Shown here in pieces: positions 45,926-64,000 of a DNA stretch of 64,000 nucleotides (its first letter is position 1; each line of letters opens with the position of its first letter). This DNA comes from Alphaproteobacteria bacterium (GTDB lineage: Bacteria > Pseudomonadota > Alphaproteobacteria > UBA828), in contig JAJDVB010000141.1 in assembly GCA_022826345.1 (NCBI GenBank), positions 49,252 through 113,251 on the forward strand. Reading direction: 5' to 3'. The position numbers and the translations under genes were made by a program. Under the pieces are notes generated by a model. That model searched no databases, was not told the DNA's origin, and saw nothing but the letters and a program-made list of their open reading frames with translations.

Positions 45926-47353
45926 ATGGCATCGGCAGATCTCGAGCTTTGCTATCTGACGGCGAGCGAGGCGCTGGAGCGCTTCAAGGCGCGCACGCTG
46001 TCGCCCGTGGAGCTGCTGGACGCGCAGATCGCGCGCACGCAGGCAGTCAATCCCAAGCTCAACGCCATCACCTACGATTACTTCGACCGGGCGCGCGAGC
46101 AGGCGCAGAAGGCCGAGGCGAAGTACGCGAAGACCGACGGCCGGCTCCGCGCTCTCGAAGGGGTGACGGTGGGGATCAAGGACTTCCACCCGGTCAAGGG
46201 CGAGATCACGACCATGGGCTCGAAGATCTTCGAGGATTTTCGGCCCGACTACTCGGCGGCGACGGTGGACCGGCTGCTGCGCGCCGGCGGCATCATGCAC
46301 TTGCGCACCACGACGCCCGAGTTCGCCTATTCCGGCAACACCCACAGCCCGCTCTGGGGCATCACGCGCAATCCGTGGAACCTGGACTACACCCCCGGCG
46401 GCTCCTCCGGCGGCGCGGGCGCGGCAGTCGCCGGCGGCATGACGACGCTCGCCGACGGTACGGACGGCGGCGGCTCGATCCGCATCCCGTCATCCGCCTG
46501 CGGCATCTTCGGTTACAAGCCGCCGTTCGGCCGCAACCCGCTGGACCGCGACCATCCGCTGGAAACGATCCTGCATTACGGCCCCATGGTTCGCAGCGTC
46601 GCCGACGCCGCGCTGATGCAGAACGTCATGTCCGGCCCGCATCCGGACGACCTGTGCAGCCTGCCGAACAAGATTCGACTGCCAACCACCTACGACGACA
46701 TTCGGGGCTGGAAGGTCGCCTTCTCCATGAACCTCGGCTACTTCGAGGTCGACCCGGAGGTGCAGGCGAACATGCGGCACGCGGCGGACGTGCTGCGCGG
46801 CCTCGGCTGCGAGGTCGACGAGGTCGATGTCGGCTTCAACTGGGGTGTCCAGGATTGCTGGATGACCTGGTGGGAGGGTCTGTTCGCGGGGATCGCCGGC
46901 CACCTGCTACCCCGCTGGCAGTACGAGATGGACCCCTTCGTGGTCAGGCTGCTTGAGAAGGGCATGACCCACAGCGCCGCGCGCCTCTACCAGTGCCAGG
47001 TATTCCGCGGCTGGATGTGGGAGCAGCTGCAGCCGATCCTCAAGCGCTACAACTTCCTGATCTGCCCGACGCTGGCGGTGCCGTCGGTCAAGGCCGAACA
47101 GGACGACGCGGACCCCAATTTCCAGATCAACGGGGTGCGCGTGATGGCCTATGTCGGCTGGATCTGCACCAACCCCTTCAACCTGCTGAGCCAGTGCCCG
47201 GTGATGAGCGTGCCGACCGGCTTCTCCTCGTTTGGGGTGCCGACCGGTATGCAGGTCGTGGGCCGGCCCTACGACGATCACTCCGTGTTCCGCGCGGCCG
47301 CCGCCTTCGAGGGCGCGACCCAGCCCTGGCAGAGCAAGCGGCCCGCGATCTAG
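45926..47353 (+). CDS. amidase signature family enzyme, copy 1
   Basis: A 475-residue amidase. The Ser-cisSer-Lys triad is visible: lysine in GVTVGIKDFHPVKGEI, and both serines in TPGGSSGGAGAAVAGGM followed by DGTDGGGSIRIPSSACG. Members hydrolyse amides, carbamates or cyclic dimers; the FEAD-like C-terminus gives no substrate. The ATG has a GGGGAGG site. It is followed by a close paralogue in the same orientation, evidence of tandem duplication. Confidence 0.92.
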   Translation: MASADLELCYLTASEALERFKARTLSPVELLDAQIARTQAVNPKLNAITYDYFDRAREQAQKAEAKYAKTDGRLRALEGVTVGIKDFHPVKGEITTMGSKIFEDFRPDYSAATVDRLLRAGGIMHLRTTTPEFAYSGNTHSPLWGITRNPWNLDYTPGGSSGGAGAAVAGGMTTLADGTDGGGSIRIPSSACGIFGYKPPFGRNPLDRDHPLETILHYGPMVRSVADAALMQNVMSGPHPDDLCSLPNKIRLPTTYDDIRGWKVAFSMNLGYFEVDPEVQANMRHAADVLRGLGCEVDEVDVGFNWGVQDCWMTWWEGLFAGIAGHLLPRWQYEMDPFVVRLLEKGMTHSAARLYQCQVFRGWMWEQLQPILKRYNFLICPTLAVPSVKAEQDDADPNFQINGVRVMAYVGWICTNPFNLLSQCPVMSVPTGFSSFGVPTGMQVVGRPYDDHSVFRAAAAFEGATQPWQSKRPAI

Positions 47354-47463: not shown

Positions 47464-48894
47464 TTGGCATCGGCGGACCTGGAGCTTTGCTATCTCTCGG
47501 CGAGCGAGGCGTTGACGCGCTTCAAGGCGCGCACGCTCTCGCCCGTGGAGCTGCTGGACGCGCAGATCGCGCGCACGCAGGCGGTCAACCCCAAGCTCAA
47601 CGCCATCACCTACGACTACTTCGACCGGGCACGCGAGCAGGCGAAGAAGGCCGAGACGAAATACGGCAAGACCGACGGCCGGCTGCGCGCACTGGAAGGC
47701 GTGCCGGTCGCGATCAAGGACTTCCACACGGTCGAGGGCGAGATCACCACCCTCGGCTCGAAGATCTTCGAGGATTTCAGGCCGGACTACACCGCGCCCA
47801 CGGTGGACCGGCTGCTGCGTGCCGGCGCCATCATGCATATGCGCTCCACATCGCCGGAGTTCGCCCACTCGGGCGCCACCCACAGCCCGCTCTGGGGTGT
47901 CACACGCAACCCGTGGAACCTGGAGTACACCCCAGGCGGCTCCTCCGGCGGCGCGGGCGCGGTGGTCGCCGCCGGCATGGCGACACTTGCCGACGGGACC
48001 GACGGCGGCGGCTCCATCCGCATCCCGGCCGCAGCCTGCGGCCTCTTCGGCTACAAGCCGCCCTTCGGCCGCAACCCGCTGGACCGCGACCATCCCTTCG
48101 AGACCATCCTGCACTACGGCCCGATCGTCCGCACCGTGGCCGATGCCGCGCTGATGCAAAACGTCATGTCCGGCCAACACCCGGAGGACCACCGCTCCCT
48201 GCCGGGCCGGGTCCGATTGCCGGCCAGCTACGAGGGCATCCGCGGCTTCAAGGTCGCCCTCAGCATGGATCTGGGCTACCTCCAGGTCGATCCGGAGGTG
48301 GAGGAGGCGACGCGCCGCGCGGCGGCGATATTCCGGGAGCTCGGCTGCGAGGTGGAGGAGGTCGATCTCGGCTGGGACTACGGCGCCCTCGACATCTGCG
48401 TGACCTGGTGGGAGGGCATCTTTGCGGGCCTCGTCGGCCAGTACCTGCCGCGCTGGCAGTACGAGATGGACCCCTTCGTCGTGAAGCTGGTGGAGCGGGG
48501 CCTCAGGCTCAGCGCCGCCCGCCTCTACCAGTGTTACGAGGCGCGTGGCCGGATGTGGCAACAGCTGCAGCCGATCCTCAAGTCCCACGACATCCTGATC
48601 TGCCCGACGAATACGGTGCCGGCAGTCAAGGCCGACCATGACAATGCGAACCCGGATTTTCGGATCAACGGGGTACGGGTCATGGCTTACGGCGGCTGGA
48701 TCGCGACCTACGGCTTCAATCAGGTGAGCCAATGCCCGGTGATGAGCGTGCCGACCGGGTTCTCCGCCAGCGGCGTGCCGATCGGGATGCAGATCGTGGG
48801 GCGGCCCTATGACGATCATTCCGTGTTCCGCGCTGCTGCCGCGTTCGAGGCCGCGACCCGGCCCTGGCAGAACAAGCGGCCCGCGATCGAATAA
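47464..48894 (+). CDS. amidase signature family enzyme, copy 2
   Basis: A 476-residue paralogue of the preceding amidase, matching it along its whole length with the same catalytic Lys (GVPVAIKDFHTVEGEI) and serines (TPGGSSGGAGAVVAAGM, DGTDGGGSIRIPAAACG). The start is TTG behind GGGAGG and aligns exactly with the ATG of copy 1. Differences are spread over the substrate-side loops (for instance THSPLWGVTRNPWNLEYT versus ITRNPWNLDYT), so specificity may have diverged. Thirty-five bases separate it from the GST gene. Confidence 0.92.
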   Translation: MASADLELCYLSASEALTRFKARTLSPVELLDAQIARTQAVNPKLNAITYDYFDRAREQAKKAETKYGKTDGRLRALEGVPVAIKDFHTVEGEITTLGSKIFEDFRPDYTAPTVDRLLRAGAIMHMRSTSPEFAHSGATHSPLWGVTRNPWNLEYTPGGSSGGAGAVVAAGMATLADGTDGGGSIRIPAAACGLFGYKPPFGRNPLDRDHPFETILHYGPIVRTVADAALMQNVMSGQHPEDHRSLPGRVRLPASYEGIRGFKVALSMDLGYLQVDPEVEEATRRAAAIFRELGCEVEEVDLGWDYGALDICVTWWEGIFAGLVGQYLPRWQYEMDPFVVKLVERGLRLSAARLYQCYEARGRMWQQLQPILKSHDILICPTNTVPAVKADHDNANPDFRINGVRVMAYGGWIATYGFNQVSQCPVMSVPTGFSASGVPIGMQIVGRPYDDHSVFRAAAAFEAATRPWQNKRPAIE

Positions 48895-51522: not shown

Positions 51523-53619
51523 TCAGTCGAGGGGAAGCAGTTCGACGATCTCGCGTCTGAAGGGAACGTCGTCGTTGCTCGCCGCCGGCCCGTCCAGATC
51601 CTCTGCGTAGCGGCGGCCGGCATAGACCGCGTGGGCGATGGTCGCCGGTGCCAGCGCGTCGCCGATGGTGGTGACCGTTTCGATGCCTGCGTCCTTCCAG
51701 TCCTCGGCGCGCGTGGCAAGCTCGCGGGCGAGGCGGTCCTCCGGTTGGCGCGAGGTGACCAGCACCACCGTATCGGCTTCGATCTCCTCCGTGCGGCCGG
51801 TGAAGACGCAGGAGGCCGTGATGGAACCTTCCGAGACGGCGTCGAGATTCGTGAAGCTGCGGATGGTCACGCCCTTCTCCAGGAGCCGCGTCTGGATGAA
51901 GTGCTGCTCCATCGTGTTCCGGGTCCAGGTCGAAGCCTCGGAAGCCGGCGTCAGGTAGTGAAGCTTGCAACCGTGGTCGGCGAGCAGCTCCGCCAGCACC
52001 CCGCCCATGTAGTAGTGATCGTCGTCCCAAACCACGACGCGCGTCCCCGCCGATGGCAAGGCGCCATCCATGATGTCGCCGGGAGTCAGCACCCGCGCAC
52101 CGGCCGCGATCGGCATGGGCTGCGCCCGGTGGTGGCCGAGACCGTCCGCCCGCCAGCGCGCGCCAGTGGCGACGACGACACGGGGCACGCCGAATTCCAG
52201 CACGGAACCAGCGTCGAGGTCGGAATCGAAGTAGACCGCCACGTTCGGCAGTTGATGAAGCTGCTGCTCGCGGTAGTCGCGGACCCGGCCCCAGGCGGCG
52301 AGCCCCGGCAGCCGGCATTCCCGCGCGACGCGGCCACCGAGCGCCGTGCCCTTCTCCGCCAGCGTCACCTCGTAGCCACGCTTGCCGAGCGCCTGCGCCG
52401 CTTCGAGGCCCGCCGGCCCCGCACCCACGATCAGGACGGGCTTCTCCGATTCGCGCGGCCGGATACGCTCCGGGTGCCAGCCCTTGCGCCACTCCTCGCT
52501 CATGGTCGGGTTCTGGGTGCAGCGGATCGGCGACATGGTGAAGTCGCCCGAGACGCAGATGTTGCAGCCGATGCATTCGCGGATGTCGTCGAGGCGCCCT
52601 TCCTCGATCTTCTTGGGCAGGAAGGGGTCGGCGATGGAGGGTCGGGCGCAGCCGATGAAGTCGGCGATCCCCTTGTTGACGACCGAGACCATTCGATCGG
52701 GTGAGGTGTAGCGCCCGACGACGACGACCGGCTTCGTGGTGAGCGTCTTCACTCCCTGGACGAAGGGCTCCTGCCAGCCTTCATCGCCGAACCGCGACGT
52801 CATGGAATCGTTTGGCCAGGCCGCCAGCGACAGGTCCCAGAGGTCCGGCAGCTCGGCGATTAGGCCGATCAGCTCCTCCACCTCCGCCTTCTCCAGGCCG
52901 CCGGAACCCAGAAGCTCGTCGAGGGCGATCCGGCACGGCACGGCGCAGGTGTCGCCCACGGCATCCCTGGTGTCGCCGATGATCTCTTCCAGCAGGCGCA
53001 CGCGGTTGCGTGGAGACCCGCCGTACTCGTCGCTCCGCCGGTTGTGATGGCGGGAGAGAAAGTGGTGCAGGATGCTGAGCGCGTGGCCGGCGTAGACGTA
53101 GACCAGGTCGAACCCGGCCTGCCGCGCCCTGAGCGCCGCCTCGCGGTGCCAGCGGCGGAGGTCGCGGATGTCCTGCTTGTCCATCGCGCGGGCCTGCAAC
53201 GGCTCGTAGCCGGCGGTCGTGACCGGCATCGCGGACGCGGCGAGCGGCACCTCGCGCGCATAGTGGTTGGCGGCGTGCGGGCCGTTGTGGGCAAGCTCGA
53301 TCCCTGCTAGTGCGCCGAACTCGTGGATGCGGTCCGCGGTCCGCGCCAGCATCGGGATGTCGCGGTCGTCCCAGAGCCGGAGCTCGATGAAGGGGGCCAC
53401 GTCCGACGTGGGGTGGATCTCCACCTCCTCGGTGCAGACCACGGCCCAGCCGCCCTCGGCCTTGACCCCGCGCATCCAGGCGAGCGCCGTGGGGTCGCGG
53501 TGGCCCATGCCGTTGCAGTGCGGCACTTGGAAGAAGCGGTTCTTCGCGGTTACCGGGCCGATCGCGACGGGCTCGAAAAGCACGTCGAAGCGAGGGTCGC
53601 GCTGTGCGCCGCTGGTCAT
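51523..53619 (-). CDS. trimethylamine dehydrogenase-like flavoprotein (old yellow enzyme fused to FAD/NAD domains)
   Basis: A 698-residue iron-sulfur flavoenzyme matching TMADH end to end. The FMN barrel has FQVPHCNG with Cys35, the position of the 6-S-cysteinyl-FMN link. The 4Fe-4S cluster uses Cys349, 352, 355 and 367 (CIGCNICVSGDFTMSPIRC). An ADP-binding domain follows (VLIVGAGPAGLEAAQALG). The aromatic box that binds trimethylammonium is not conserved: Tyr60 is replaced by Glu65 and the Trp355 region by SGDF. It may demethylate or oxidise another amine, such as an N-methylated amino acid. It lies 79 bases after putA. Confidence 0.9.
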   Translation of the reverse strand: MTSGAQRDPRFDVLFEPVAIGPVTAKNRFFQVPHCNGMGHRDPTALAWMRGVKAEGGWAVVCTEEVEIHPTSDVAPFIELRLWDDRDIPMLARTADRIHEFGALAGIELAHNGPHAANHYAREVPLAASAMPVTTAGYEPLQARAMDKQDIRDLRRWHREAALRARQAGFDLVYVYAGHALSILHHFLSRHHNRRSDEYGGSPRNRVRLLEEIIGDTRDAVGDTCAVPCRIALDELLGSGGLEKAEVEELIGLIAELPDLWDLSLAAWPNDSMTSRFGDEGWQEPFVQGVKTLTTKPVVVVGRYTSPDRMVSVVNKGIADFIGCARPSIADPFLPKKIEEGRLDDIRECIGCNICVSGDFTMSPIRCTQNPTMSEEWRKGWHPERIRPRESEKPVLIVGAGPAGLEAAQALGKRGYEVTLAEKGTALGGRVARECRLPGLAAWGRVRDYREQQLHQLPNVAVYFDSDLDAGSVLEFGVPRVVVATGARWRADGLGHHRAQPMPIAAGARVLTPGDIMDGALPSAGTRVVVWDDDHYYMGGVLAELLADHGCKLHYLTPASEASTWTRNTMEQHFIQTRLLEKGVTIRSFTNLDAVSEGSITASCVFTGRTEEIEADTVVLVTSRQPEDRLARELATRAEDWKDAGIETVTTIGDALAPATIAHAVYAGRRYAEDLDGPAASNDDVPFRREIVELLPLD

Positions 53620-53698
53620 ATCTGACCTCCGTAAGTCTTCTGGGGGCAGCTTACGTGATCGCGGCCCGTGCCGTTGAGACCGTCGCGAGAAGTACGGG

Positions 53699-56600
53699 TT
53701 ATCCCCCTGCCGCGGCGAGCAGCGATGCGTTGCCGCCCGCCGCCGTGGTGTCGACGCAGAGGTGGCGCTCCAGCACGTAGCGCTCGGGCGCGTCAGGCTC
53801 CGCGATCAGCGACAGGATCGGACCGGGACGACGCGCGAGCGCGGCGCGCACCGTTGCGAGCACATCCCGATCCGCGACGCAGGCAACGGCGGCGATGCCG
53901 GCCAGGCTGGCGAGCGCGTCGGGCTCGATTTGACCGTCGAGCACGACCACACGCGGATCGGTCGCGTGAGCGGTGAGCGCCGCGCTCGCACCGGCGGCGA
54001 CCGCCACCACGGCGTTTCCCGCCTCGCGGGCCGCCGCGACCTGCGTCTGCACCGCGTCGGCGCCGGGGCCGAGGCAGAGCACCACGCCACGGGGCACGAA
54101 CGAGAACCGGTTGGATTCGCCGGTCGGGCCGGGGAGATCCAGCGGTGCGAAGCGGCCGCCGTCTCCGTGATGCGTCCCCGCCGCGAGGGCGCGGCCGGCG
54201 TCGGCGATGGCGGCGGCGAGCAACGCCTCGTCGATCACCGCGCCCGAGGGCCGGCCGCCGGCGGGAGCGGCACCGGCCGTGAGACGGCCCACGTAGTGCG
54301 GTCCTCCGGCCTTCGGTCCGGTCCCGCTCAGGCCCTCGCCGCCGAAGGGCTGCGAGCCCACCACCGCGCCGATCTGGTTGCGATTGACGTAGATGTTGCC
54401 CGCGCGCACGCGATCGACGATGTGCTGCACGCGATCGTCGATACGCGTGTGCAGGCCGAAGGTGAGGCCATGGCCGGCCTCGTTGACGGCATCGACGACG
54501 GCGTCGATCTCGTCGGCCCCGAATGTGGCGACGTGCAGCACCGGCCCGAAGATTTCCTCTTCGAGCGCCCCGATGCCATCGACCCTCAGCACTGTCGGCG
54601 GCACGAAGGTGCCGTCCCCCGGCGCCGCGAGCCGCTTGAGCAGGCGTCCCTCCCGCTCGGCCTCGGCGCAGTGCGCCTCGATGCGGACCTGCGCGTCCGT
54701 GTCGATCACCGGGCCGATGTCCGTGGCGAGGTCCCAGGGGTCGCCGACGCGAAGCTCGTCCATGGCGCCCAACAGCATGTCCAGAATCCGTTCCTCCACT
54801 TCGCGCTGGATGTAGAGGATGCGCAGCGCCGAGCAGCGCTGGCCGGCGCTCTGGAAGGCGGAGGCGACGATGTCGCGCACCGCCTGCTCGGGCAGCGCGG
54901 TGGAATCCACGATCATCGCGTTGAGCCCGCCGGTCTCGGCGATGAGTGGCGCTTGCGGAGCGAGGTGCCGCGCCATCGCGCGGTCGATGAGCCGGGCGGT
55001 CCCGGTCGAGCCGGTGAAGCAGACGCCGTCGATGCGGGGGTCGGCGACGAGAGCCGCACCCACCGAAGCGCCGCCGCCGGGCAATAGCTGCACTGCCGCG
55101 CGCGGGATGCCGGCCTCGTGCATCAGCGCGACTGCGCGTGCCGCGATCAGCGGCGTCTGCTCCGCCGGCTTGGCGATGACCGCGTTGCCGGCGGCGAGCG
55201 CCCCGAGAACCTGGCCGGAGAAGATGGCGAGCGGAAAGTTCCAGGGCGAGATGCAGGCGATCACGCCGCGCGGGGTGCGGCGGCCCTCACCGCTCAAGCG
55301 CAGTGCTTCGCTCGCATAGAAGCGCGCGAAGTCGCAGGCCTCGCGTACCTCCGCCACACAATCCGGCAAGGTCTTGCCCGCCTCGCGCGCGGCGAGCGCG
55401 AAGAGTTCCGCCGCGTGCTCCTCGTAGAGATCGGCCACGCGGCGGAGACGGCTCGCGCGTTCCTCGACGCTCAGCGACGCCCACGCCGCTGCGCCGCTCC
55501 GGGCCGCCTCCAGGGCCGTTTCGATGTCGGACGGCGCGGCTTGCGTGACGTAGCCCACGATGTCGTCCGGGCGCGCCGGGTTCCGCACCGCCGTACGCTC
55601 GGCGCCAAGGGCTTCGCCTGCGATCATCGGCCCGGCTTCCCAGACCTCGTTACGGATGGGCGCGCGAGCGGCCTCGATGGCATCGACGGTGAGGGGGTCG
55701 GTGAGGTCCCATCCCTTTGCGTTGCAGCGGGCGGGGGCGAAGAGGGCGGGCGGCGCCGCGATGGCCGGGTTCGCGATGGCGCCGCCGAGCTCTTCCACCG
55801 CCGCGACCGGATCGCGCGCGATCTCGTCGGCCGTCACGCTCTCGTCCACGATCCGGTTTACGAACGAGCTGTTGGCGCCGTTCTCCAGCAGGCGGCGGAC
55901 GAGATAGGCGAGCAGGTCGTGATGCGCGCCCACCGGCGCGTAGATGCGGCAGCGCAGGCCATGCGCTCCACGCACCGCCCCGTGCAACGCCTCGCCCATG
56001 CCGTGCAGGCGCTGGAACTCGAAATCCGCGCGTTCGCCCGCCATGTGCAGCACCGCCGCCACCGTGTGCGCGTTGTGGGTCGCGAACTGCGGATAGAGGC
56101 GGTCCGTCATCCCGAGCAGCCGGCGTGCGCAGGCGAGAAAGCAGACATCGGTGCCGGCCTTGCGGGTGAAGACCGGGAAGCCCGCGAGGCCCTGTACCTG
56201 AGCGCGCTTGATTTCGGTATCCCAGTAGGCGCCCTTAACCAGCCGCACCATCATGCGGCGCCCGTGTGCGCCGGCGAGCGCATAGACCCAATTGATGACG
56301 TGCGCGGCCCGCTTTCCGTAGGTCTGCACCACGACGCCGAAGCCGTCCCACCCTGCGAGTGCGGGATCGGCCAGCACCGCCTCGATGACATCGAGCGAGA
56401 GGTCGAGGCGGTCCGCCTCCTCGGCATCGACGTTGAGGCTGATGCCGGCCGACTTGGCGAGCAATGCCAACGCGCCGAGGTGGGCCGCAACCTCCGTCAA
56501 CACCCGGTCACGCTGAGCGAACTCGTAGCGCGGGTGCAGCGCCGAGAGCTTGACCGAGACCCCCGGCCGGTCGCGGATACTCGCGCCCCGGCCGACATCG

Positions 56601-57289
56601 GCGAGCTTGGTGATTGAGTCCGAGTAGGCGAGGTGGTAGCGGCGCGCGTCCGCCTCGGTGCGGGCCGCTTCCCCCAGCATGTCGTAGGAGAAGCTGTAGC
56701 CCTGCGCTTCCTGCTCGGCGGCACGGCCCACGGCCTCGCCGATGTCGCGCCCGAGCACGAACTGGTGCCCAAGCTCGCGCATCGCCTGGGCGACCGCCGC
56801 GCGGATGACCGGCTCGCCCAGCCGCTTGACCGCGCCGTGCAGCGCCCCGGCGAGGCCTTCCTCTGCCTCGCCCAGCACCTTGCCGGTCAGCAGCAGCGCC
56901 CAGGTCGATGCGTTGACCAGCGGCGAGCTCGATTGCCCGAGGTGCGCCGCCCAGTCGGATGCCGCGATCTTGTCCTCGATCAGCGCGTCGATGGTCTCGG
57001 TGTCGGGCACCCGCAGCAGCGCCTCGGCAAGGCACATGAGCGCAACGCCCTCGCGCGACGAGAGCCCGTACTCGGCGAGGAAGCCCTGCATGATCGAGGC
57101 GCTGCCGCCCGCCCGCACGGTGCGGACCAGATCGGCCGCGCGCAAAGAGATGGCGTCCCGGTCGGCCCGTGTGAGGCCCGTGGCCTCGACCATCCGCCCC
57201 ACGGCAACCGCCTCGTCCTCGAGGATGGCGGCGTGCATCGCCGCCCGTATGTCAGTGAGACCCCGTGAGGCGCCGCAGGGTCGGCTCAC
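53699..57289 (-). CDS. putA: bifunctional proline dehydrogenase / P5C dehydrogenase
   Basis: A 1196-residue enzyme that oxidises proline to glutamate. The FAD-linked proline dehydrogenase domain covers roughly residues 170-460 (MMVRLVKGAYWDTEIKRAQV, PQFATHNAHTVAA, ENGANSSFVNRIVDE). The aldehyde dehydrogenase domain covers about 560-990 (ISPWNFPLAIF, GSTGTARLIDRA, catalytic Cys in QSAGQRCSALRIL). A C-terminal ALDH-superfamily-like region follows. There is no ribbon-helix-helix DNA-binding domain. It starts at GTG, overlapping the permease stop by 4 nt, so it belongs to the ABC/hydantoinase operon. Confidence 0.95.
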   Translation of the reverse strand: MSRPCGASRGLTDIRAAMHAAILEDEAVAVGRMVEATGLTRADRDAISLRAADLVRTVRAGGSASIMQGFLAEYGLSSREGVALMCLAEALLRVPDTETIDALIEDKIAASDWAAHLGQSSSPLVNASTWALLLTGKVLGEAEEGLAGALHGAVKRLGEPVIRAAVAQAMRELGHQFVLGRDIGEAVGRAAEQEAQGYSFSYDMLGEAARTEADARRYHLAYSDSITKLADVGRGASIRDRPGVSVKLSALHPRYEFAQRDRVLTEVAAHLGALALLAKSAGISLNVDAEEADRLDLSLDVIEAVLADPALAGWDGFGVVVQTYGKRAAHVINWVYALAGAHGRRMMVRLVKGAYWDTEIKRAQVQGLAGFPVFTRKAGTDVCFLACARRLLGMTDRLYPQFATHNAHTVAAVLHMAGERADFEFQRLHGMGEALHGAVRGAHGLRCRIYAPVGAHHDLLAYLVRRLLENGANSSFVNRIVDESVTADEIARDPVAAVEELGGAIANPAIAAPPALFAPARCNAKGWDLTDPLTVDAIEAARAPIRNEVWEAGPMIAGEALGAERTAVRNPARPDDIVGYVTQAAPSDIETALEAARSGAAAWASLSVEERASRLRRVADLYEEHAAELFALAAREAGKTLPDCVAEVREACDFARFYASEALRLSGEGRRTPRGVIACISPWNFPLAIFSGQVLGALAAGNAVIAKPAEQTPLIAARAVALMHEAGIPRAAVQLLPGGGASVGAALVADPRIDGVCFTGSTGTARLIDRAMARHLAPQAPLIAETGGLNAMIVDSTALPEQAVRDIVASAFQSAGQRCSALRILYIQREVEERILDMLLGAMDELRVGDPWDLATDIGPVIDTDAQVRIEAHCAEAEREGRLLKRLAAPGDGTFVPPTVLRVDGIGALEEEIFGPVLHVATFGADEIDAVVDAVNEAGHGLTFGLHTRIDDRVQHIVDRVRAGNIYVNRNQIGAVVGSQPFGGEGLSGTGPKAGGPHYVGRLTAGAAPAGGRPSGAVIDEALLAAAIADAGRALAAGTHHGDGGRFAPLDLPGPTGESNRFSFVPRGVVLCLGPGADAVQTQVAAAREAGNAVVAVAAGASAALTAHATDPRVVVLDGQIEPDALASLAGIAAVACVADRDVLATVRAALARRPGPILSLIAEPDAPERYVLERHLCVDTTAAGGNASLLAAAGG

Positions 57290-58227
57290 CGCCGCTGGCC
57301 GCCCGCGCTGATCCCGATTGCGGCGAGGATGACCAGCCCCGTGGTAAGGTCGCGGTAGAAGGGATCGGCGTTCAGGATGTTGAAGCCGTTACTGATGAGC
57401 GCCAGGAGGAAGACGCCGCCGAGGCTGCGCCACACCGCGCCGGCACCGCCGTAGATGCTGGTGCCGCCCAGGATGACGGCGGCGATGGCCTGCAACTCCA
57501 TGCCCTGACCGGCCGCAGCCTGGCCCAGCGCCACGCGCGATGTCGCAATGATCGAGGCGAGCCCCGCCGCGAAGCCCGCGATGGCGAAGGTGGCGGTCTT
57601 CACGCGATCCGTGCGGATGCCGGAGAGCACAGCGGCTTCCTCATTGCCGCCGACGGCGAAGACCCGACGCCCGAAGGCGGTCCGCGTCAGCGCGAAGGTC
57701 AGGATCGTGGCGAAGACCGCCATGATCCAGACGGCGATGAAGACGCCACCCGCCTTGTCGCGCCCGAGCCAGGTGAAGGTGTCCAAGCGGACGGAGATCA
57801 GCCGTCCGTCTGAGATGACGATGGCGACGCCCTTGAAGATCAGACTCGTGGCGATGGTTGCGAGGAAGGAGTGCACCCGGAGCGCGTTGATGACGACGCC
57901 GTTCATGGTGCCGAGGATGAGGCCGATGAAGGGCGCCACGAAAAGGCCGACGTAGGGGTCCACACGCAGCGCGATCCAGGCCGACATGACCGAGCCCATG
58001 GAGAAGATCGCCGCCACCGAGAGGTCGAACCCGCCCGCGATGATCACCAGCGTCATCGCCGACGCCATGATCGCGAGCGGCGCGTTCTGGTTGAGGATGT
58101 TCAGCAGGTTGCGGGGCGTCAGGAAGTTCTCGGACAGCATGCTGAGCGCGATGACCAGGAACACGATCATGATCAGGACCGCGTAGGTCTGCAGGAAGCG
58201 GCCGATATGGAAGCTTCCGATCATCAT
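57286..58227 (-). CDS. sugar-type (CUT2) ABC transporter permease
   Basis: A 313-residue inner-membrane permease of the RbsC/AraH class, with about eight to ten helices. The family core is GFDLSVAAIFSMGSVMSAW, NGVVINALRVHSFLATIATS and GRRVFAVGGNEEAAVLSGI, the last resembling the ATPase-contact loop, followed by AIAAVILGGTSIYGGAGAVW. It starts with ATG overlapping the ATPase stop, and ends overlapping putA. Transported compound unknown; CUT2 systems also import non-sugars. Confidence 0.93.
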   Translation of the reverse strand: MMIGSFHIGRFLQTYAVLIMIVFLVIALSMLSENFLTPRNLLNILNQNAPLAIMASAMTLVIIAGGFDLSVAAIFSMGSVMSAWIALRVDPYVGLFVAPFIGLILGTMNGVVINALRVHSFLATIATSLIFKGVAIVISDGRLISVRLDTFTWLGRDKAGGVFIAVWIMAVFATILTFALTRTAFGRRVFAVGGNEEAAVLSGIRTDRVKTATFAIAGFAAGLASIIATSRVALGQAAAGQGMELQAIAAVILGGTSIYGGAGAVWRSLGGVFLLALISNGFNILNADPFYRDLTTGLVILAAIGISAGGQRR

Positions 58228-59738
58228 GCCGCGCCGCGCCGCTGGCTCTGGTGCTGGAAGAGCAGCGCGAGAAGGTCCGCCTCGCTGGATTCCTCCGGGA
58301 TCACTTCTTCCACGATGCGGCCGCCATCGGCCAGATAGGCGCGATGGGCGAGGCCCAGCACCTCCTCGATCTCGCTGGAGATGAGCAGGACGGCGGTGCC
58401 GCTGGCAGCGAGCTCCGCGATCGCGAAATGAATCCGCTCACGGGCGCCCACGTCCACGCCGCGGCTCGGCTCGTCGAGGATCACGATGTCGGGATTCTCC
58501 ATGAGCCACTTGCCGATCAGGACCTTCTGCTGATTGCCGCCGGAAAAGGTCGCGACGTTGCCGTTGGGGTCGGCCGGGCGCACGCGGAAGTGCTCGATCA
58601 GGCTCATGGCGCGCGAGCGTTCGGTGCGGCGGCGCATGACCCCAAGGTGCGCGAAGCGGCCGAGGTGAGGCAAGGTCATGTTGGGCGAGACGCGCATGGT
58701 CAGGATCAGACCCTGCTTGCGGCGGTCCTCCGGCGACATCACCATGCCGAGCGCGGCAGAGCGCCGTATCGAACGCTTCCGATAGACCTCGCCCTTGAGC
58801 CGGACCTCGCCGCCCGTTGCGGGGTCCGCGCCGACGATCGCGCGGGCGATCTCGCTCCTGCCGCTGCCCACGAGGCCGGTGAGGCCCACGATCTCCCCTC
58901 GGCCGACCGAGAGGCTTGCGCCGTTGGCGCCTTGCTCGCTCTCGAGGTCCTCGACTTCCAGGACGGGCTCGGGATTTTCGGGGCGGATCTTCGGCGGGAA
59001 CGGGGTCTCGCTCTTGCCGCCGCCGAGCATCGCCGCGACCAGGCTCGACCGGGTCTCGCCCGAGGCCGGCGCCGTCTTCACGTGCTTGCCGTCGCGCAGC
59101 ACGGTGATCCGGTCGGATACCTCGAGAATGTCGTGGAGGAAGTGCGAGACGTAGATGATCGAGCGTCCTTCGTCTCGCAGCGCCCGCATCGCCGAGTGTA
59201 GCTGCGTCACTTCGTCCCGCGAGAGAGAAGACGTGGGCTCGTCCATCACGATGATCCGCGCATCGCGCGCGAGCGCCCGCAGGATCTCGATCTTCTGCTG
59301 GTCGGCGATGGGGAGCCGGGAGACGATGGCGTTGGGGTCCAGCTGAAAGCCGCTCGCTTCCATCAACGCCGAGAGGCGCTGCGCCTCGCTGCGGCGCAGC
59401 ACGCCCCAGCGCTGGTCTTCCAGGCCGAGGAAGACGTTCTCCGCTACGGTGAGCGCCGGCACGAGCTGGAGCTCCTGGTGCATGATCGCGACGCCCTTGG
59501 AGAGCGCAGACAGGGGGTCCCACGCGCTCGCCCGCTCTCCGAAGACATCGAGCGTGCCCGCGCTCGCCGCGTAGTAGCCGCCGAAGACCTTGCCGAGCGT
59601 CGACTTGCCCGCGCCGTTCTCGCCGATCAGCCCGTGGATTTCGCCCGGCAGGATGTCCACCGAGACGTCGCTGAGGACCCAGACGCCCGCGAAGGCGACG
59701 CCGATCCCGTTGGCTCGTAGCGCCGGCTCGTCAGCCAT
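58224..59738 (-). CDS. sugar-type (CUT2) ABC transporter ATP-binding protein
   Basis: A 504-residue ATPase with two ABC domains, as in RbsA. Domain 1 has Walker A GENGAGKSTLGK, and Walker B IIVMDEPTSSLS; domain 2 has GLVGSGRSE, and signature FSGGNQQKVLIGKW with DIVILDEPSRGVD. Domain 1's LPIADQQKIEI in place of LSGGQ is normal for this class. The frame is open upstream, but homology starts at the ATG at 59738, eight bases after hyuB. Works with the adjacent permease. Confidence 0.94.
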   Translation of the reverse strand: MADEPALRANGIGVAFAGVWVLSDVSVDILPGEIHGLIGENGAGKSTLGKVFGGYYAASAGTLDVFGERASAWDPLSALSKGVAIMHQELQLVPALTVAENVFLGLEDQRWGVLRRSEAQRLSALMEASGFQLDPNAIVSRLPIADQQKIEILRALARDARIIVMDEPTSSLSRDEVTQLHSAMRALRDEGRSIIYVSHFLHDILEVSDRITVLRDGKHVKTAPASGETRSSLVAAMLGGGKSETPFPPKIRPENPEPVLEVEDLESEQGANGASLSVGRGEIVGLTGLVGSGRSEIARAIVGADPATGGEVRLKGEVYRKRSIRRSAALGMVMSPEDRRKQGLILTMRVSPNMTLPHLGRFAHLGVMRRRTERSRAMSLIEHFRVRPADPNGNVATFSGGNQQKVLIGKWLMENPDIVILDEPSRGVDVGARERIHFAIAELAASGTAVLLISSEIEEVLGLAHRAYLADGGRIVEEVIPEESSEADLLALLFQHQSQRRGAA

Positions 59739-59746
59739 AACCGTGG

Positions 59747-61468
59747 TCAGGCGCGTGGCTGCGATCCCTCTTCGTCCACGACGAGGTCCGAGGTGATCCG
59801 GACGCCATAGTCCCTCCAGGCTCCTTCGGGAGAAACGTAACCCCGAAGCACGTCGCGCTGCACCTCCTCGAACGGGCGCGCCTTGGGATCGCCGTTGCCG
59901 CCGCCGCCGCCGGTCCAGGTCTCGACCACCGTGCCGGCGGCGACCGGCCGCGCCCGCATCTTGAGCGGCCCTTCGGCCGACCCATCGGGGTGGGTGATCT
60001 CGACCTTCGGGCCCCGCGCGTCTTTGCCCCCGTTTAGCCCCCAGGCCGGTGTGAGCGAACGCTCGAACCAGAGGGCGCAGTAGCAATCCTCCAGGGTCTT
60101 GTAGCGGCGCAGGACGCCACAGCCGCCGCGGTGCCGCCCCGGCCCACCCGAATCGGGGCGGATGGCGAACTCCTCAAGGCGGACGGGGAACTTCGTCTCC
60201 ATCACCTCGGCGGGGATGTTGCGGAAGCTGCCGTTCACCAGGTTGATGAGTGCGCTCTGGCCGTCGCCGTCGTTGCGCCCGCCCCAGCCGCCGGCGGTCG
60301 CCTCGATGGACATCCACTGGCCCCGCCTGCGATCGACCGAGAAGAAGAGGGAGACCATCGAATCCCCGTAGTGGGCGGCGGTCGAGCGCTCGGGGATCGC
60401 TTCGGAGAGGCAGGAGATGAAGAGGTCCGCCAGCAAGCCCAAGCCGGTGAAGTACCACTCGCAGGCCGCAGGCTCCTTGGCGTTGAAGAGGCAATCGTCC
60501 GGGATGTGGACGGTCATCGTCTCGAATGAGCCGCCGGTGATCGCCCGCTCCGGGTTGATCATCGTCTTGTAGGCGAGGCGCAGCAGGGACACGGTCTGGC
60601 TCGCGCCGCAGTTGACCGAGCCGGGGACGATGCCCGAGGAGCCTTCGAGGTCGACGATCAACTCCTCGCCCTTGACCGTGAGCGTCAGCGCGACCTTCAC
60701 CGGGTCGTCGCCCGCGCCGTCGCTGTCCAAGAAACCTTCCCGGTACCAGGTGCCGTCCTTGATCGCGGCGATCGCCTCGCGGTCCATGCGCCGCGCCTGC
60801 TCGAAGATGCTCGCGCAGGCCGCTCGGTAGGTCTCGATGCCGATACGGTCGAGCAGCTGGGAGAGCCTGCGCTCGCCGGTGCGAACGGCGGCGATCTGGG
60901 CGTCCAGGTCGCCGATGCTCGTGTCCGGCATGCGGGTGTTGAGCCGCAGCAGGTCGAACCACTCGCGGATAGGCTTGCCTTGCGCGACGATGCGAGTCGG
61001 TCCCAGGCGCAGCCCCTCCTGGTAGATGTTCGTGGAGCCCATGACCGTGCCGGGGTCGATGGCGCCGATGTCGTTCCAGTGGGCGCGCGCGGCGCCGAAG
61101 CCGATCAGCTCGCCGCCGAAGAAGATGGGCCCGACCACCGACACGTCATGCAGGTGCGAGCCCTGCATGTAGCTGTCGTTCATGATGAAGACATCACCTG
61201 GGGCGATGTCGTCGCCGTAGTAGTCCATCACGTGGTGGACGTTGGCATCGATGGCGCCAATGAAGAGCGGCACGCCGCTCGATTGCCCCAGCATGTTGCC
61301 GTCGGCGTCCAGCAGCCCGACGGCGCTGTCCCGGCCCTCGTAGATGACCGCCGAGTGAGCGGAGCGCCAGAGCGACGCGTTCATGTCCTCCGCGCAGGAG
61401 ACGACGAAGTTGCGCACGATCTCCGTCGTGACCGGGTCCGCGACGGTGCGCAGCATCGGATCGTTCAT
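59747..61468 (-). CDS. hydantoinase B / oxoprolinase family protein
   Basis: A 573-residue HyuB-type subunit. It opens [21 protein letters not shown], with [20 protein letters not shown], and the metal-region [20 protein letters not shown]; later [21 protein letters not shown] and [17 protein letters not shown]. With HyuA it forms an ATP-dependent ring-opening enzyme acting on hydantoins, N-methylhydantoin, 5-oxoproline or related lactams. Its ATG overlaps the hyuA stop by 4 nt. Confidence 0.92.
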
Positions 61469-63492
61469 GCTCCCGCCTCCTTCGTCATGGAGAGGTGACC
61501 GCCCTCGATCACCGTGGCGTTCCAGCCCGGCGGCACCAGCGTCGTCGCCGTCGATTCCTCGATGATCGCGGGGCCTGCCACGGCATCGCCGATCTCAAGC
61601 CCGTTGCGGTCGAGCACCGGCGTCTTCAGCGGCCGTCCGGCGAAGATGACGTCCCGCTCGCGCGTGGGCCGTGCGGGCTCCGGCGCAGGCGGCGCGGAAT
61701 CCGGTCGCGCCAGCCGGCCGAGCGCAGCCAGGCGGATGTTCGCCATCTCGACACGGTTCTCCGGGCTGGAGTGGCCGTACTGCCGGTCGTATGCCACATC
61801 GAAGCTCTTCCGCACGGCATCCATGTCGATGGTCCCGCTCGGCACTGGGATGGTGAGGACATATTCCTGCCCGTAGTAGCGGAAGTCGATGGCCCGCTCG
61901 AAGGCGATCGCGTCCTCGGCAATCCCTTCGTCCAGCAGGTGCCGGCGGCCATTCTCCTCAAGTCCCGTGAACGCGGCTTCCAGGACCGCGAGCTCCACGA
62001 GGTCCCAGAAGGAATAGAGCGTTTCCTTGTAGTCGCGGCGCACGTCGGTTTGCAGCATGCCCCAGGCGGAGAAGGCGCCGGGGTGCACCGGCACGATCAC
62101 CTCGCGGATCTGCAGCTCCTCGGCGAGCGCGCCCGCCTGCGCCGGGCCTGCGCCGCCGAAGGCGACGAGGGAGAAGTCCCGCGGGTCGATGCCGCGTTGG
62201 ACGGTGATGGTCCTGATCGCATCCGCCATCTTGGCGTTCACGACGTCCACGACACCCTGCGCCATGGTCTCGGTCGTGAGCCCGAACGTCTCGCCGATGG
62301 TCGTGAGCGCCGTAACCGCCGCATCGCGGTCCAGCGCCATTGCGCCGCCGGAGAAATTGGCGCCGTCGAGCCGGCCGAGCACGAGGTTGGCGTCGGAGAC
62401 CGTGGGTTCGGTTCCGCCCAGCCCGTAGCAGGCCGGCCCCGGCATGGAGCCGGCGGACTGGGGGCCGACGCGCATGGCGCCCGCCTCCTCCCACGCGATG
62501 GAGCCGCCGCCCGCGCCGATGACGTGGATGTCCACCACCGACATCTGCACGGGCAGCCCCTCCAGCTTGGCATGGTTGGAGCCGGACGGCAGCCCGTCGA
62601 TGATCAGGCTGGCATCGAAGGAGGTCCCGCCCATGTCGATGCAGATGAGATTGGGCCGCCCGGTTGCGGCCGAAAGCGCCCTGCCGCCGATGGCGCCGCC
62701 CACGGGGCCGGAGAGCAGCGTCTGCAGCGGGGTCTCGCTGGCGGATTCCGCCGTCATCACCCCGCCGTTGGACTGCATGACGTGCAGCCCCCGGCCTTCG
62801 GGCAGGCGATCGCCGAGGCCGCCGATCAGGGTCTCCAGGTATCCCCGCACCACCGGCGCGAGGTAGCTGTCCATCACCGCGGTTGAGGTCCGCTCGAACT
62901 CCCGCCACTCGGGCGAGACCCGGTGAGAGAGCCCGATGGGGATGTCGGGCAGGCGCGCGCGCAGGTACTCGGCGGCCTCTAGCTCGTGCGCCGGGTTCTT
63001 GAAGGAGAACAGGAAGGCGATGGCGATCGCCTCGAAGCCCTCTTCTTTCACGGCGTCGACGAGGCGGTCGAGATCGCTCGTCTCAAGGGGCGCCACGGCC
63101 TCGCCGGTGGCCGCCATCCGCTCCCGCGCCGTGAACGTGTGCTCCAGCGGCGTGAGCGGCTCGGGCTTGTTCCAGCGGATCGAGAAGATCTCGCCGCGGT
63201 CGTTGCCCTGGATCGTGTAGATGTCCCGAAAGTTCTCGGTGGTGAGCAGCGCCACCTTGGCGCCCCGCCGGGTGAGCAGCGCGTTCAGCCCCACCGTCGT
63301 GCCGTGGACGAAGAAATCGATCGCGGCTTCGGTCGGGATCGCCGCCTCGATGCCCCGGAGCACCGCAAGCGCCGGGTCGTCCGGCGTCGAAAGAACCTTC
63401 GCAGCGCCGCAGGCGCCGGTCTTGCAATCCTGATAGACGATATCCGTAAACGTGCCGCCGATATCGGCGGACACCCGATAGTGTCGGGTCAA
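61465..63492 (-). CDS. hydantoinase A / oxoprolinase family protein
   Basis: A 675-residue ATP-dependent subunit with an actin-like fold. It has the N-terminal phosphate motif VSADIGGTFTDIVYQD, FFVHGTTVGLNALLTRRGAK, and the second nucleotide region ICIDMGGTSFDASLIIDG, followed by GAGGGSIAW. It activates the lactam bond by phosphorylation for opening by HyuB. Start taken as TTG at 63492, just after GGGAGGTGG; an upstream in-frame TTG (63513) is less likely. It follows the binding-protein gene across a strong hairpin. Confidence 0.92.
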   Translation of the reverse strand: MTRHYRVSADIGGTFTDIVYQDCKTGACGAAKVLSTPDDPALAVLRGIEAAIPTEAAIDFFVHGTTVGLNALLTRRGAKVALLTTENFRDIYTIQGNDRGEIFSIRWNKPEPLTPLEHTFTARERMAATGEAVAPLETSDLDRLVDAVKEEGFEAIAIAFLFSFKNPAHELEAAEYLRARLPDIPIGLSHRVSPEWREFERTSTAVMDSYLAPVVRGYLETLIGGLGDRLPEGRGLHVMQSNGGVMTAESASETPLQTLLSGPVGGAIGGRALSAATGRPNLICIDMGGTSFDASLIIDGLPSGSNHAKLEGLPVQMSVVDIHVIGAGGGSIAWEEAGAMRVGPQSAGSMPGPACYGLGGTEPTVSDANLVLGRLDGANFSGGAMALDRDAAVTALTTIGETFGLTTETMAQGVVDVVNAKMADAIRTITVQRGIDPRDFSLVAFGGAGPAQAGALAEELQIREVIVPVHPGAFSAWGMLQTDVRRDYKETLYSFWDLVELAVLEAAFTGLEENGRRHLLDEGIAEDAIAFERAIDFRYYGQEYVLTIPVPSGTIDMDAVRKSFDVAYDRQYGHSSPENRVEMANIRLAALGRLARPDSAPPAPEPARPTRERDVIFAGRPLKTPVLDRNGLEIGDAVAGPAIIEESTATTLVPPGWNATVIEGGHLSMTKEAGA

Positions 63493-63520
63493 ATTGCCAC
63501 CTCCCGGCGCCAAACGGCCG

Positions 63521-63545
63521 CTGGAGCCCCCGGAGGGGGCCCCAG
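63521..63545 (-). promoter_or_regulatory. intercistronic hairpin after the binding-protein gene
   Basis: Arms 63521-63531 and 63535-63545 are 10 of 11 complementary with a three-base loop. It lies 14 bases after the binding-protein stop and 28 before the hyuA start, with no T-run. Such hairpins protect the 3' end of binding-protein mRNA and reduce read-through, giving more binding protein than the downstream enzymes. Confidence 0.6.
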
Positions 63546-63559
63546 CAGGTAAACGTCGG

Positions 63560-64000
63560 TTACTGCTCCCACTCGCCCCTGAAGTCGGGGTTGGCGTCGA
63601 GAATAGCCTTGTCGATCATGGCCTGCAGCGGACCCGAGACGTCCATGTTGATGGCGTTGGTCACGGGCTTGCCCTCGATGGCGTTGGCGATCTGCTCCAT
63701 CGCGAGCGCCCCCATGGTCTTGGGGAAGTAAGCGAGGGTTGCGTCCCAGCGCCCTTCGCGGATCGCCTCGATCGAGATCGCCGCAGCGCCGCCGCCGATG
63801 AGGTAGAGGTCGGCTACGGTGTAGCCCTCGGCCTCCAGCGCGATCTCGGCACCCACCAGATGCTGAGCCGTGTGCGCTGTCGGGAATCCCTTGATGAGCA
63901 AGGGCTCCAGGTGATCTGAGATTTTTCTTACCCCAGCGAGGTCGCAGATTTCTGCGGCTCTCGGGTCGGCGAAGAGGGCGATCCGGCGATTTCCACCCCA
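63560..64000 (-). CDS. sugar-type ABC transporter substrate-binding protein (3' part, cut by window edge)
   Basis: The C-terminal 146 residues of a periplasmic binding protein; the frame stays open to the window edge, so the N-terminus and signal peptide lie outside. It has GNRRIALFADPRAAEICDLA, TAQHLVGAEIALEAEG, LIGGGAAAISIEAIREGRWD and ATLAYFPKTMGALAMEQIAN, matching RbsB/CUT2-type proteins (effector-binding lobe 2 with the hinge). It is the probable ligand receptor for the ABC importer encoded at 57286-59738. The ligand is not evident. Confidence 0.85.
   Translation of the reverse strand, partial: WGGNRRIALFADPRAAEICDLAGVRKISDHLEPLLIKGFPTAHTAQHLVGAEIALEAEGYTVADLYLIGGGAAAISIEAIREGRWDATLAYFPKTMGALAMEQIANAIEGKPVTNAINMDVSGPLQAMIDKAILDANPDFRGEWEQ

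Follow-up and report, generated by a model that had tools for sequence, protein, structure and literature searches.

What compound is broken down by an operon that joins a CUT2-type importer, an ATP-dependent cyclic-amide hydrolase, the proline-oxidizing enzyme PutA and a flavin/iron-sulfur oxidoreductase? The question is raised by a 64,000-nt stretch of DNA from an alphaproteobacterium (GCA_022826345.1, contig JAJDVB010000141.1, positions 49,252 to 113,251), whose full length is called the window here. Its operon region (51523–64000) holds seven minus-strand coding regions. Counted from the 64000 end, these are a binding-protein fragment, hyuA, hyuB, a two-domain ATP-binding cassette (ABC) ATPase, a permease, putA and the oxidoreductase. 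The original prediction for this locus was that a cyclic, possibly N-methylated, proline-, oxoproline- or hydantoin-like compound is imported, opened and converted to glutamate. The outline of this proposal fits our results, and the comparative context narrows the compound to diketopiperazines of proline or hydroxyproline. The operon is probably a catabolic unit for 2,5-diketopiperazines of the cyclo(Xaa-Pro) type, to which some relatives would add cyclo(Xaa-Hyp). We infer the substrate, the bond that is cut and the direction of flow from the gene identities, the catalytic residues and the conserved association of the genes.

Relatives were collected with a HyuA scan over one genome per bacterial or archaeal species. 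At least 554 relatives were found, and the best 80 loci were analysed. These loci include many close relatives and are not independent. Counts per locus use the whole locus, with flanks of up to 10 kb.

Predicted pathway

In the proposed pathway, the CUT2-type importer would take up the intact diketopiperazine ring, and HyuAB would use ATP to activate and hydrolyse the Pro-CO-NH-Xaa amide, which would release linear Xaa-Pro. An Xaa-Pro dipeptidase of the M24 type, encoded divergently in relatives and expected just outside the window here, would cleave Xaa-Pro into Xaa and proline. PutA would then oxidize proline to glutamate. Relatives with hydroxyproline enzymes would use those instead of, or besides, PutA.

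The amide at the proline nitrogen of cyclo(Xaa-Pro) is tertiary; Pro-CO-NH-Xaa alone has an N-H and can form a lactim. Because only this amide can form a lactim, Xaa-Pro is the expected product under the mechanism proposed for caprolactamase. Cyclo(Pro-Pro), which has no N-H, is therefore predicted to be inert. By analogy, cutting Pro-CO-NH-Xaa would yield Xaa-Pro, the substrate of the neighbouring dipeptidases. In caprolactamase, the lactam is thought to be activated by ATP, possibly as the lactim, and then hydrolysed at a metal site, according to the available part of its description (PMC8453981).

In five gammaproteobacterial loci (L054, L059, L063, L074 and L077), a cyclophilin-family gene lies next to a gene for a helix-turn-helix (HTH)-cupin-type regulator (assigned by Pfam in L054 and by cluster in the others), and the pair is divergent from a TonB receptor-HyuA-HyuB cluster. 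The diketopiperazine ring holds both of its amides in the cis configuration; prolidases reportedly require Xaa-Pro to be trans. The cyclophilin may isomerize the Xaa-Pro product from cis to trans, or its presence may be a matter of chance.

HyuAB subunits and their position in the family

The Hydantoinase_A and Hydantoinase_B domains of the window proteins score above the Pfam cut-offs (299, 156 and 517 bits). In HyuA, the Asp of DxGGTFTD and the Asp of DMGGTSFD are retained in 83 of 83 aligned cluster members. In HyuB, Asp47, His105, Asp108 and His130 are retained in 81 of 81; the window proteins are included in both sets. The metal ligands of HyuB were assigned by a motif match to those of caprolactamase, from which the phosphate-site Asp pair of HyuA and the Asp-His-Asp-His metal site of HyuB are known (PMC8453981, as far as available). 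CapAB caprolactamase of Pseudomonas jessenii (PMC8453981, PDB 6yra) has, in the same part of that source, two subunits with the ATP-site Asp residues and this metal site, as in the operon. Unlike CapAB, however, the operon HyuAB is far below the caprolactamase NCBIfam equivalog cut-offs (497 and 271 bits versus 1000 each), and it sits with an importer, an Xaa-Pro dipeptidase and proline genes. The subunits are also homologous to those of ATP-dependent N-methylhydantoinase and 5-oxoprolinase, and the top PDB match is 7hk5, a named N-methylhydantoinase (414 bits for HyuA and 286 bits for HyuB).

Ten host genomes were used for a comparison with paralogues. In the HyuA tree, single-chain proteins of 1199–1316 residues from these genomes form a separate block; from their length, we take them to be 5-oxoprolinase-like. 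The operon HyuA and HyuB differ from this type because they are separate subunits, and they group apart from it. Clades were delimited by cut-offs in profile score, which are consistent with the order of the tree, and L151_8468 and L080_4467 were assigned to a sister clade by hand.

These comparisons bear on a further suggestion, in which HyuAB would act on 5-oxoproline, on a pyroglutamyl peptide or on some other plain lactam, and the dipeptidase and PutA neighbours would serve general peptide scavenging. The closest characterised relatives do act on caprolactam and similar cyclic amides. However, the operon proteins fall short of the caprolactamase cut-offs, their HyuA is apart from the 5-oxoprolinase-like proteins in the tree, and proline or hydroxyproline enzymes in 23 of the 80 loci are too specific for general scavenging. 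We regard this explanation as quite improbable. The oxoproline-like compound of the original prediction was not supported, since the single-chain 5-oxoprolinase-like proteins group elsewhere and have no dipeptidase neighbour in any of their 11 loci. If the cyclic-dipeptide assignment is true, the annotation of this HyuAB clade, now called hydantoinase or oxoprolinase, would need correction.

Association with Xaa-Pro dipeptidases

Three DIPEPTIDASES and four proline families stand beside HyuAB of this clade. The dipeptidases comprise three non-homologous or distinct types, namely a short M24 protein, an amidohydrolase and a PepQ that carries an N-terminal domain of its own. The full set of five metal ligands is retained in 48 of 48 M24 proteins, and the best NCBIfam match of the M24 protein of L002 is the PepQ type (184 bits, below the cut-off of 630 for this archaeal-type model). 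The amidohydrolase is unrelated to M24 and adjoins or replaces it in other members; its best NCBIfam match by far is Xaa-Pro dipeptidase in five of five scanned proteins (214–235 bits, below the cut-off of 500). The PepQ of L079, which belongs to a different M24 subfamily, comes after HyuB and an NCS1-type permease and exceeds its cut-off (457 versus 339 bits).

Other functions of the M24 protein were considered and rejected. A creatinine/creatine route would involve a creatinase-like M24 protein, but 48 of 48 members have the complete metal site, and the match to creatinase (1chm) is 56 bits versus 187 for the dipeptidase 1wn1. Such a route would also leave the proline genes unexplained. Ectoine hydrolase reached 73 bits versus 184 for the PepQ type.

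The nature of the dipeptidases also bears on a proline-derived hydantoin, or another ring of the N-acyl- or N-carbamoyl-proline kind, as the substrate. HyuAB would then form N-carbamoylproline, the M24 protein or amidohydrolase would remove the carbamoyl group, and PutA would take the proline. Relatives of HyuAB open hydantoins, 7hk5 is the top structural match, and some members are flanked by permeases of the NCS1 type, a family associated with hydantoin and allantoin. We nevertheless consider this unlikely, given that the L079 PepQ and the other dipeptidase types point to peptides. Proline hydantoin is not known as a common metabolite.

The ten genomes contain 78 HyuA-domain matches, 64 of which were examined with their flanks; 13 partial matches (at most 112 bits) and G003:C13:112541 were left out. 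The genomes were chosen after their own neighbourhoods were known, and the control flanks were unseen. Neighbours were detected with profiles built from clusters of the 80 loci, at thresholds of 200 bits for M24, 180 for amidohydrolase, 500 for PutA and 300 for the racemase and dehydratase; the L079 PepQ was counted by hand. A gene of the Xaa-Pro-dipeptidase type (M24 or amidohydrolase) lies within 8.5 kb at 10 of 10 loci of the operon's HyuA clade and at 8 of 8 sister-clade loci. At these thresholds, none was detected at the 35 other HyuA loci or at the 11 single-chain 5-oxoprolinase-like loci. The comparison of 10/10 with 0/46 loci outside the operon and sister clades gives a Fisher p of 2.8e-11. 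Because of these counts and the separation in the tree, the dipeptidase association belongs to this part of the family and not to HyuA at large.

The sister clade occurs in the same genomes (L134, L135, L141, L144, L147, L149 and L151) with the order HyuA-HyuB-M24-HyuB and a GAF-type gene at the other end. The L035 region is similar and adds an Asp/Glu-racemase-family gene. A proline enzyme was found in none of 14 sister-clade loci; their substrate, perhaps another cyclic amide, may therefore differ.

Proline and hydroxyproline enzymes

The four catabolic families beside HyuAB are PutA, 4-hydroxyproline epimerase, trans-3-hydroxyproline dehydratase and cis-3-hydroxyproline dehydratase. Where scanned, PutA (window, L009 and L076), the epimerase (L011 and L048), the trans-3 dehydratase (L011, L026 and L032) and the cis-3 dehydratase (L060) score above their cut-offs. 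These members come from alpha- and gammaproteobacteria, and the window PutA reaches 1418.6 bits with the bifunctional PutA model NF008869 (cut-off 747). The proteobacterial members scanned thus have the same terminal enzymes, above NCBIfam cut-offs, as known proline and hydroxyproline catabolic operons. They differ from those operons in that the terminal enzymes are joined to HyuAB and an Xaa-Pro dipeptidase.

Over the 80 loci, PutA was counted in 17, the amidohydrolase in 10, the proline-racemase family in 6 and cis-3-hydroxyproline dehydratase in 4. A dipeptidase is present in 57 loci and a proline or hydroxyproline enzyme in 23; both occur in 18, and either in 62. In the paralogue comparison, a proline or hydroxyproline enzyme lies within 8.5 kb at none of the 8 sister-clade loci, 1 of the 35 other HyuA loci (a PutA in L140) and none of the 11 single-chain loci. 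Across the ten genomes, few loci show the link to proline.

Actinobacteria appear to repeat the association of HyuAB, dipeptidase and proline enzyme with other parts. A Paenarthrobacter plasmid has the order HyuA-HyuB-GAF-amidohydrolase-PutA, in which PutA is divergent in sequence (370 bits versus the cut-off of 747). A related Arthrobacter plasmid has the first four genes of this order. In a genome from Rubrobacter's phylum, the order is HyuA-HyuB-M24-binding protein-permease, and a divergent gene pair facing the cluster encodes an aldehyde dehydrogenase and a protein with a proline-dehydrogenase domain, which reaches 183 bits with the PutA model (below the cut-off). Actinobacteria are sparsely sampled here: of 396 genomes in a phylum search from G011, 3 matched at E 1e-185, and two of these were the starting genomes.

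On balance, we favour the view that such a pathway extends over at least Alphaproteobacteria, Gammaproteobacteria and Actinomycetota. A distinct HyuAB clade would act as an ATP-dependent cyclodipeptide hydrolase that opens cyclo(Xaa-Pro/Hyp). It would be served by a CUT2-type diketopiperazine importer, or by other importers in other groups, and Xaa-Pro dipeptidases would have joined it on at least three independent occasions.

Conservation of the operon in relatives

Conservation of the seven-gene order had been named as a check on the original prediction, and it is found in part. Of the 80 loci, two (L001 and L002) have the complete seven-gene set; the last gene of L001 is divided between two frames near its residue 229. 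In L004, a close relative, the last gene was not matched within 2.2 kb after putA. The smaller unit with the order binding protein-HyuA-HyuB-ATPase-permease is widespread and recurs across Alphaproteobacteria. The closest relatives alone have the full set. What is conserved more widely is a smaller core, whose likely key partner would lie outside the window.

Divergent from the conserved unit there is usually a GntR/FCD regulator with an M24 peptidase. A further small gene often accompanies them; it is named "GAF-domain protein" in plasmid records, and the example in L009 matched no Pfam family. In L001 and L002, genes for a GntR regulator and an M24 Xaa-Pro-dipeptidase-like protein are divergent from the binding-protein gene. 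By comparison with these loci, the likely key partner M24, with GntR, would lie just beyond the edge of the window.

The operon could in principle be a chance meeting of unrelated modules, that is, a CUT2 sugar importer, an orphan HyuAB and a housekeeping putA. The fold of the binding protein resembles sugar binders, and the importers differ between clades: they comprise CUT2 systems, a TonB receptor with an NCS1 permease, an ABC ATPase with CbiQ, and, beside the Arthrobacter cluster, an MFS protein. We find such an origin hardly credible in view of the recurrence of the binding protein (61 of the 80 loci), permease (58) and M24 (51), the 4-nt overlaps between genes and the apparent replacement of the sugar carboxylate ligands in the binding protein. 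The GAF-type gene was counted in 44 loci. HyuAB, the dipeptidase and the proline enzymes recur although the importers differ.

Other proteins adjoin hyuAB in single groups. A small protein lies before hyuA in L053, L062, L067, L071 and L072 and after hyuB in L054, L057 and L059. It has 107–116 residues in seven of the eight loci and 133–134 in L057, and the examples from L054 and L067 had no Pfam match. In the gammaproteobacterial loci L076 (13765–15528) and L078 (3900–5612), proteins of 587 and 570 residues are encoded between HyuB and PutA; neither had a Pfam match at E 1e-5.

Importer and binding protein

The importer has the composition of a CUT2 system, with a fused two-domain ATPase and a BPD_transp_2 permease in the window and a Peripla_BP_4 binding protein in L002. 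The nearest NCBIfam model of the ATPase is AraG (463 bits, below the cut-off of 689), and the permease reaches 224 bits with the ribose permease model (cut-off 398). The importer is thus like CUT2 sugar importers of the RbsABC type in fold and domain composition. It may differ from them in the ligand site of its binding protein. In a low-identity alignment, inspected by eye, of a relative's binding protein with the ribose binder, five of seven polar ligands, both carboxylates included, are replaced, and the equivalents of Asn13 and Arg141 are retained. A fold search with a relative's binding protein returned sugar-type binders, the autoinducer-2 (AI-2) receptor LsrB and uncharacterised proteins among the matches listed. 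The sugar-like fold leaves room for a non-sugar ligand.

The binding-protein gene is affected by more than the cut at the window edge: its identity to relatives stops inside the window. In a blastn comparison, the window is about 91% identical to L001 and L002 from 51.5 kb to 63865, where the match ends. In the remaining 135 bases (63866–64000), the reading frame stays open, and among the collected loci the sequence matches only itself; it had no match in plasmids, and an exact 31-base probe had 0 matches in viral_contigs. The N-terminal two thirds of the protein are absent from the window and complete in L001 and L002. The window fragment reaches 30.3 bits with Peripla_BP_4 (below the cut-off of 35.1), and the full L002 protein reaches 143 bits. 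In L003, no binding-protein match was found within 4 kb upstream of hyuA, and this break differs from that of the window. The gene appears to be truncated in the window, because L001 and L002 have the full gene and 63866–64000 matches no relative; the cause may be inserted DNA, a rearrangement or a join made during assembly.

A stem of at least 8 perfect pairs lies within 75 nt past the stop codon of the binding-protein gene in 33 of 50 relatives, compared with 0.5 expected from base shuffles. The stems at this site differ in sequence between relatives, and the sequence is not conserved.

Several observations weigh against a pathway for proline diketopiperazines. The window's copy of the binding-protein gene is either disrupted or wrongly assembled, and the nearest solved relatives of the binding protein, by sequence and by fold, are ribose and other sugar binders. 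Of the 80 loci, 18 have neither a dipeptidase nor a proline enzyme, some of them on short contigs. The 10/10 count is not blind, as the genomes were picked after their neighbourhoods had been seen, and 57/80 is the fairer rate for the clade. The M24 profile, built from these loci, may miss distant M24 proteins at the controls; one at the control locus L146 scores 135 bits, below the threshold of 200. L020, a single-chain locus from a genome other than these ten, has a dipeptidase because it adjoins a member of the operon's clade. The M24 and amidohydrolase members are under their NCBIfam cut-offs, and the M24 protein of L067 scores 4 bits higher with an aminopeptidase model. The sister clade has dipeptidases and no proline enzyme, so that M24 alone is no proof of proline. 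Finally, a proline or hydroxyproline enzyme lies within 8.5 kb at only 2 of the 10 operon-clade loci in the ten genomes.

The last gene and N-methylated substrates

The last gene had been described as a demethylase similar to trimethylamine dehydrogenase (TMADH). The FMN/TMADH-type family was confirmed, but the best matches in the PDB are histamine dehydrogenases over the whole length of the protein (3k30, 885 bits; 6de6, 884 bits), with 6l6j at 698 bits and TMADH at 526 bits. Like histamine dehydrogenase and TMADH, it keeps the flavin Cys, the Cys pattern of the [4Fe-4S] cluster and the catalytic Tyr, His and Asp. Of the residues that form the aromatic bowl of TMADH (Tyr60, Trp264 and Trp355), Tyr60 is replaced by Glu, Trp264 is kept, and Trp355 falls in a gap. 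The protein also differs from the two histamine dehydrogenases compared, which have Gln at the place of this Glu. An amine dehydrogenase is accordingly the likelier prediction than a tertiary-amine demethylase. The gene was found in 3 of the 80 loci, all close relatives, and seems to be a lineage-specific add-on, acquired later, with histamine dehydrogenase as its nearest solved relative. Among the annotated neighbours of three plasmid-borne relatives, there is no hyuAB, no putA and no hint of the substrate.

It is very improbable that the substrate is an N-methylated proline (stachydrine or N-methylproline) or a ring compound with an N-methyl group, from which the last enzyme would remove the methyl group before PutA acts. 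PutA does adjoin a TMADH-superfamily enzyme, and genes for an MTTB-family methyltransferase and DAO/GCV_T-type proteins lie upstream of the module in L012 (by Pfam) and in L013, L027 and L049 (by cluster), which is suggestive of betaine demethylation beside the operon. However, neither stachydrine nor N-methylproline contains an amide ring that HyuAB could open, and neither calls for an Xaa-Pro dipeptidase. The last enzyme resembles histamine dehydrogenase and has lost two of the three bowl residues, and its gene is rare among the relatives (3 of the 80 loci) and unmatched within 2.2 kb after putA in L004.

Relation to known diketopiperazine degradation

Proline diketopiperazines are common microbial products that resist ordinary peptidases, and diketopiperazines are discussed as bacterial signals. 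If the proposed pathway is true, it would destroy such compounds. Bacterial strains that cleave diketopiperazines have been described; in the available part of that work, 15 peptidases were inactive, two recombinant D-hydantoinases were inactive on nine diketopiperazines, and a two-step route of cyclo(Gly-Leu) hydrolase and dipeptidase is cited in the references (PMC3852281). The predicted pathway shares the ring opening of cyclic dipeptides with these strains and differs in that the ring-opening hydrolase has no named gene in that part of the work. In two reviews (PMC12565711 and PMC11610984), the terms hydrolase, degradation and catabolism led to no passage on a ring-opening hydrolase. In titles and abstracts of the open-access literature, subscription papers and bioRxiv being outside the scope, a link between HyuAB and cyclic dipeptides was absent among the matches listed, and PMC3852281 was the closest.

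The enzyme family is known, and the predicted pathway would be new as a variant. If true, it supplies the genes, ATP as the energy source, an importer and a prediction of the cut bond for diketopiperazine ring opening, a step without assigned genes in the available text of PMC3852281, PMC12565711 and PMC11610984. The cultured hosts of relatives (e.g., Hoeflea, Nitratireductor and Mesorhizobium) make the pathway directly testable.

Gene arrangement and boundaries

The operon is real, and it was partly misread in the original prediction. The seven minus-strand genes were found as described (Table 1), as were the Hydantoinase_A, Hydantoinase_B, ABC ATPase, permease, PutA and FMN/TMADH-type oxidoreductase identities (by Pfam and NCBIfam). 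The predicted 4-nt overlaps are present in the coordinates between HyuA and HyuB (61465–61468), the ATPase and permease (58224–58227), and the permease and PutA (57286–57289). A gap of 8 nt lies between HyuB and the ATPase, and one of 79 nt between PutA and the oxidoreductase. The hyuA start codon is TTG, preceded by GGGAGG, and an alternative start of the open reading frame at 63513 is possible. A promoter/terminator scan found no promoter-like site and one terminator-like site, which is within hyuB, fewer than in shuffled sequences; the interval from putA to the last gene gave no terminator-like match.

Table 1. Features of the operon region in the window.
Feature	Position	Strand	Basis
Non-matching sequence, continues the binding-protein reading frame	63866..64000	-	blastn identity to L001/L002 ends at 63865
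CUT2-type periplasmic binding protein, C-terminal part (101 codons + stop)	63560..63865	-	98% identity to L002 protein
Stem-loop 3' of the binding-protein stop codon	63517..63549	-	Fold z -1.75; 14-pair stem in centroid
hyuA, ATP-binding subunit of ATP-dependent cyclic-amide hydrolase	61465..63492	-	Pfam PF05378, PF01968, PF19278
hyuB, metal-binding ring-hydrolysing subunit	59747..61468	-	Pfam PF02538, 517 bits
CUT2-type ATPase, two ABC domains in a single chain	58224..59738	-	PF00005 in two stretches
CUT2-type permease	57286..58227	-	PF02653 (BPD_transp_2), 115 bits
putA, proline dehydrogenase / L-glutamate gamma-semialdehyde dehydrogenase, GTG start	53699..57289	-	NF008869
Predicted histamine-dehydrogenase-like flavin/4Fe-4S amine dehydrogenase	51523..53619	-	PDB 3k30, 6de6 best matches

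Near the operon, the window also contains two tandem amidase-family genes (PF01425) at 45926–47353 and 47464–48894. Over 300 nt, beginning shortly upstream of the gene starts, they share 89% identity, and the pair appears to be a recent duplication.

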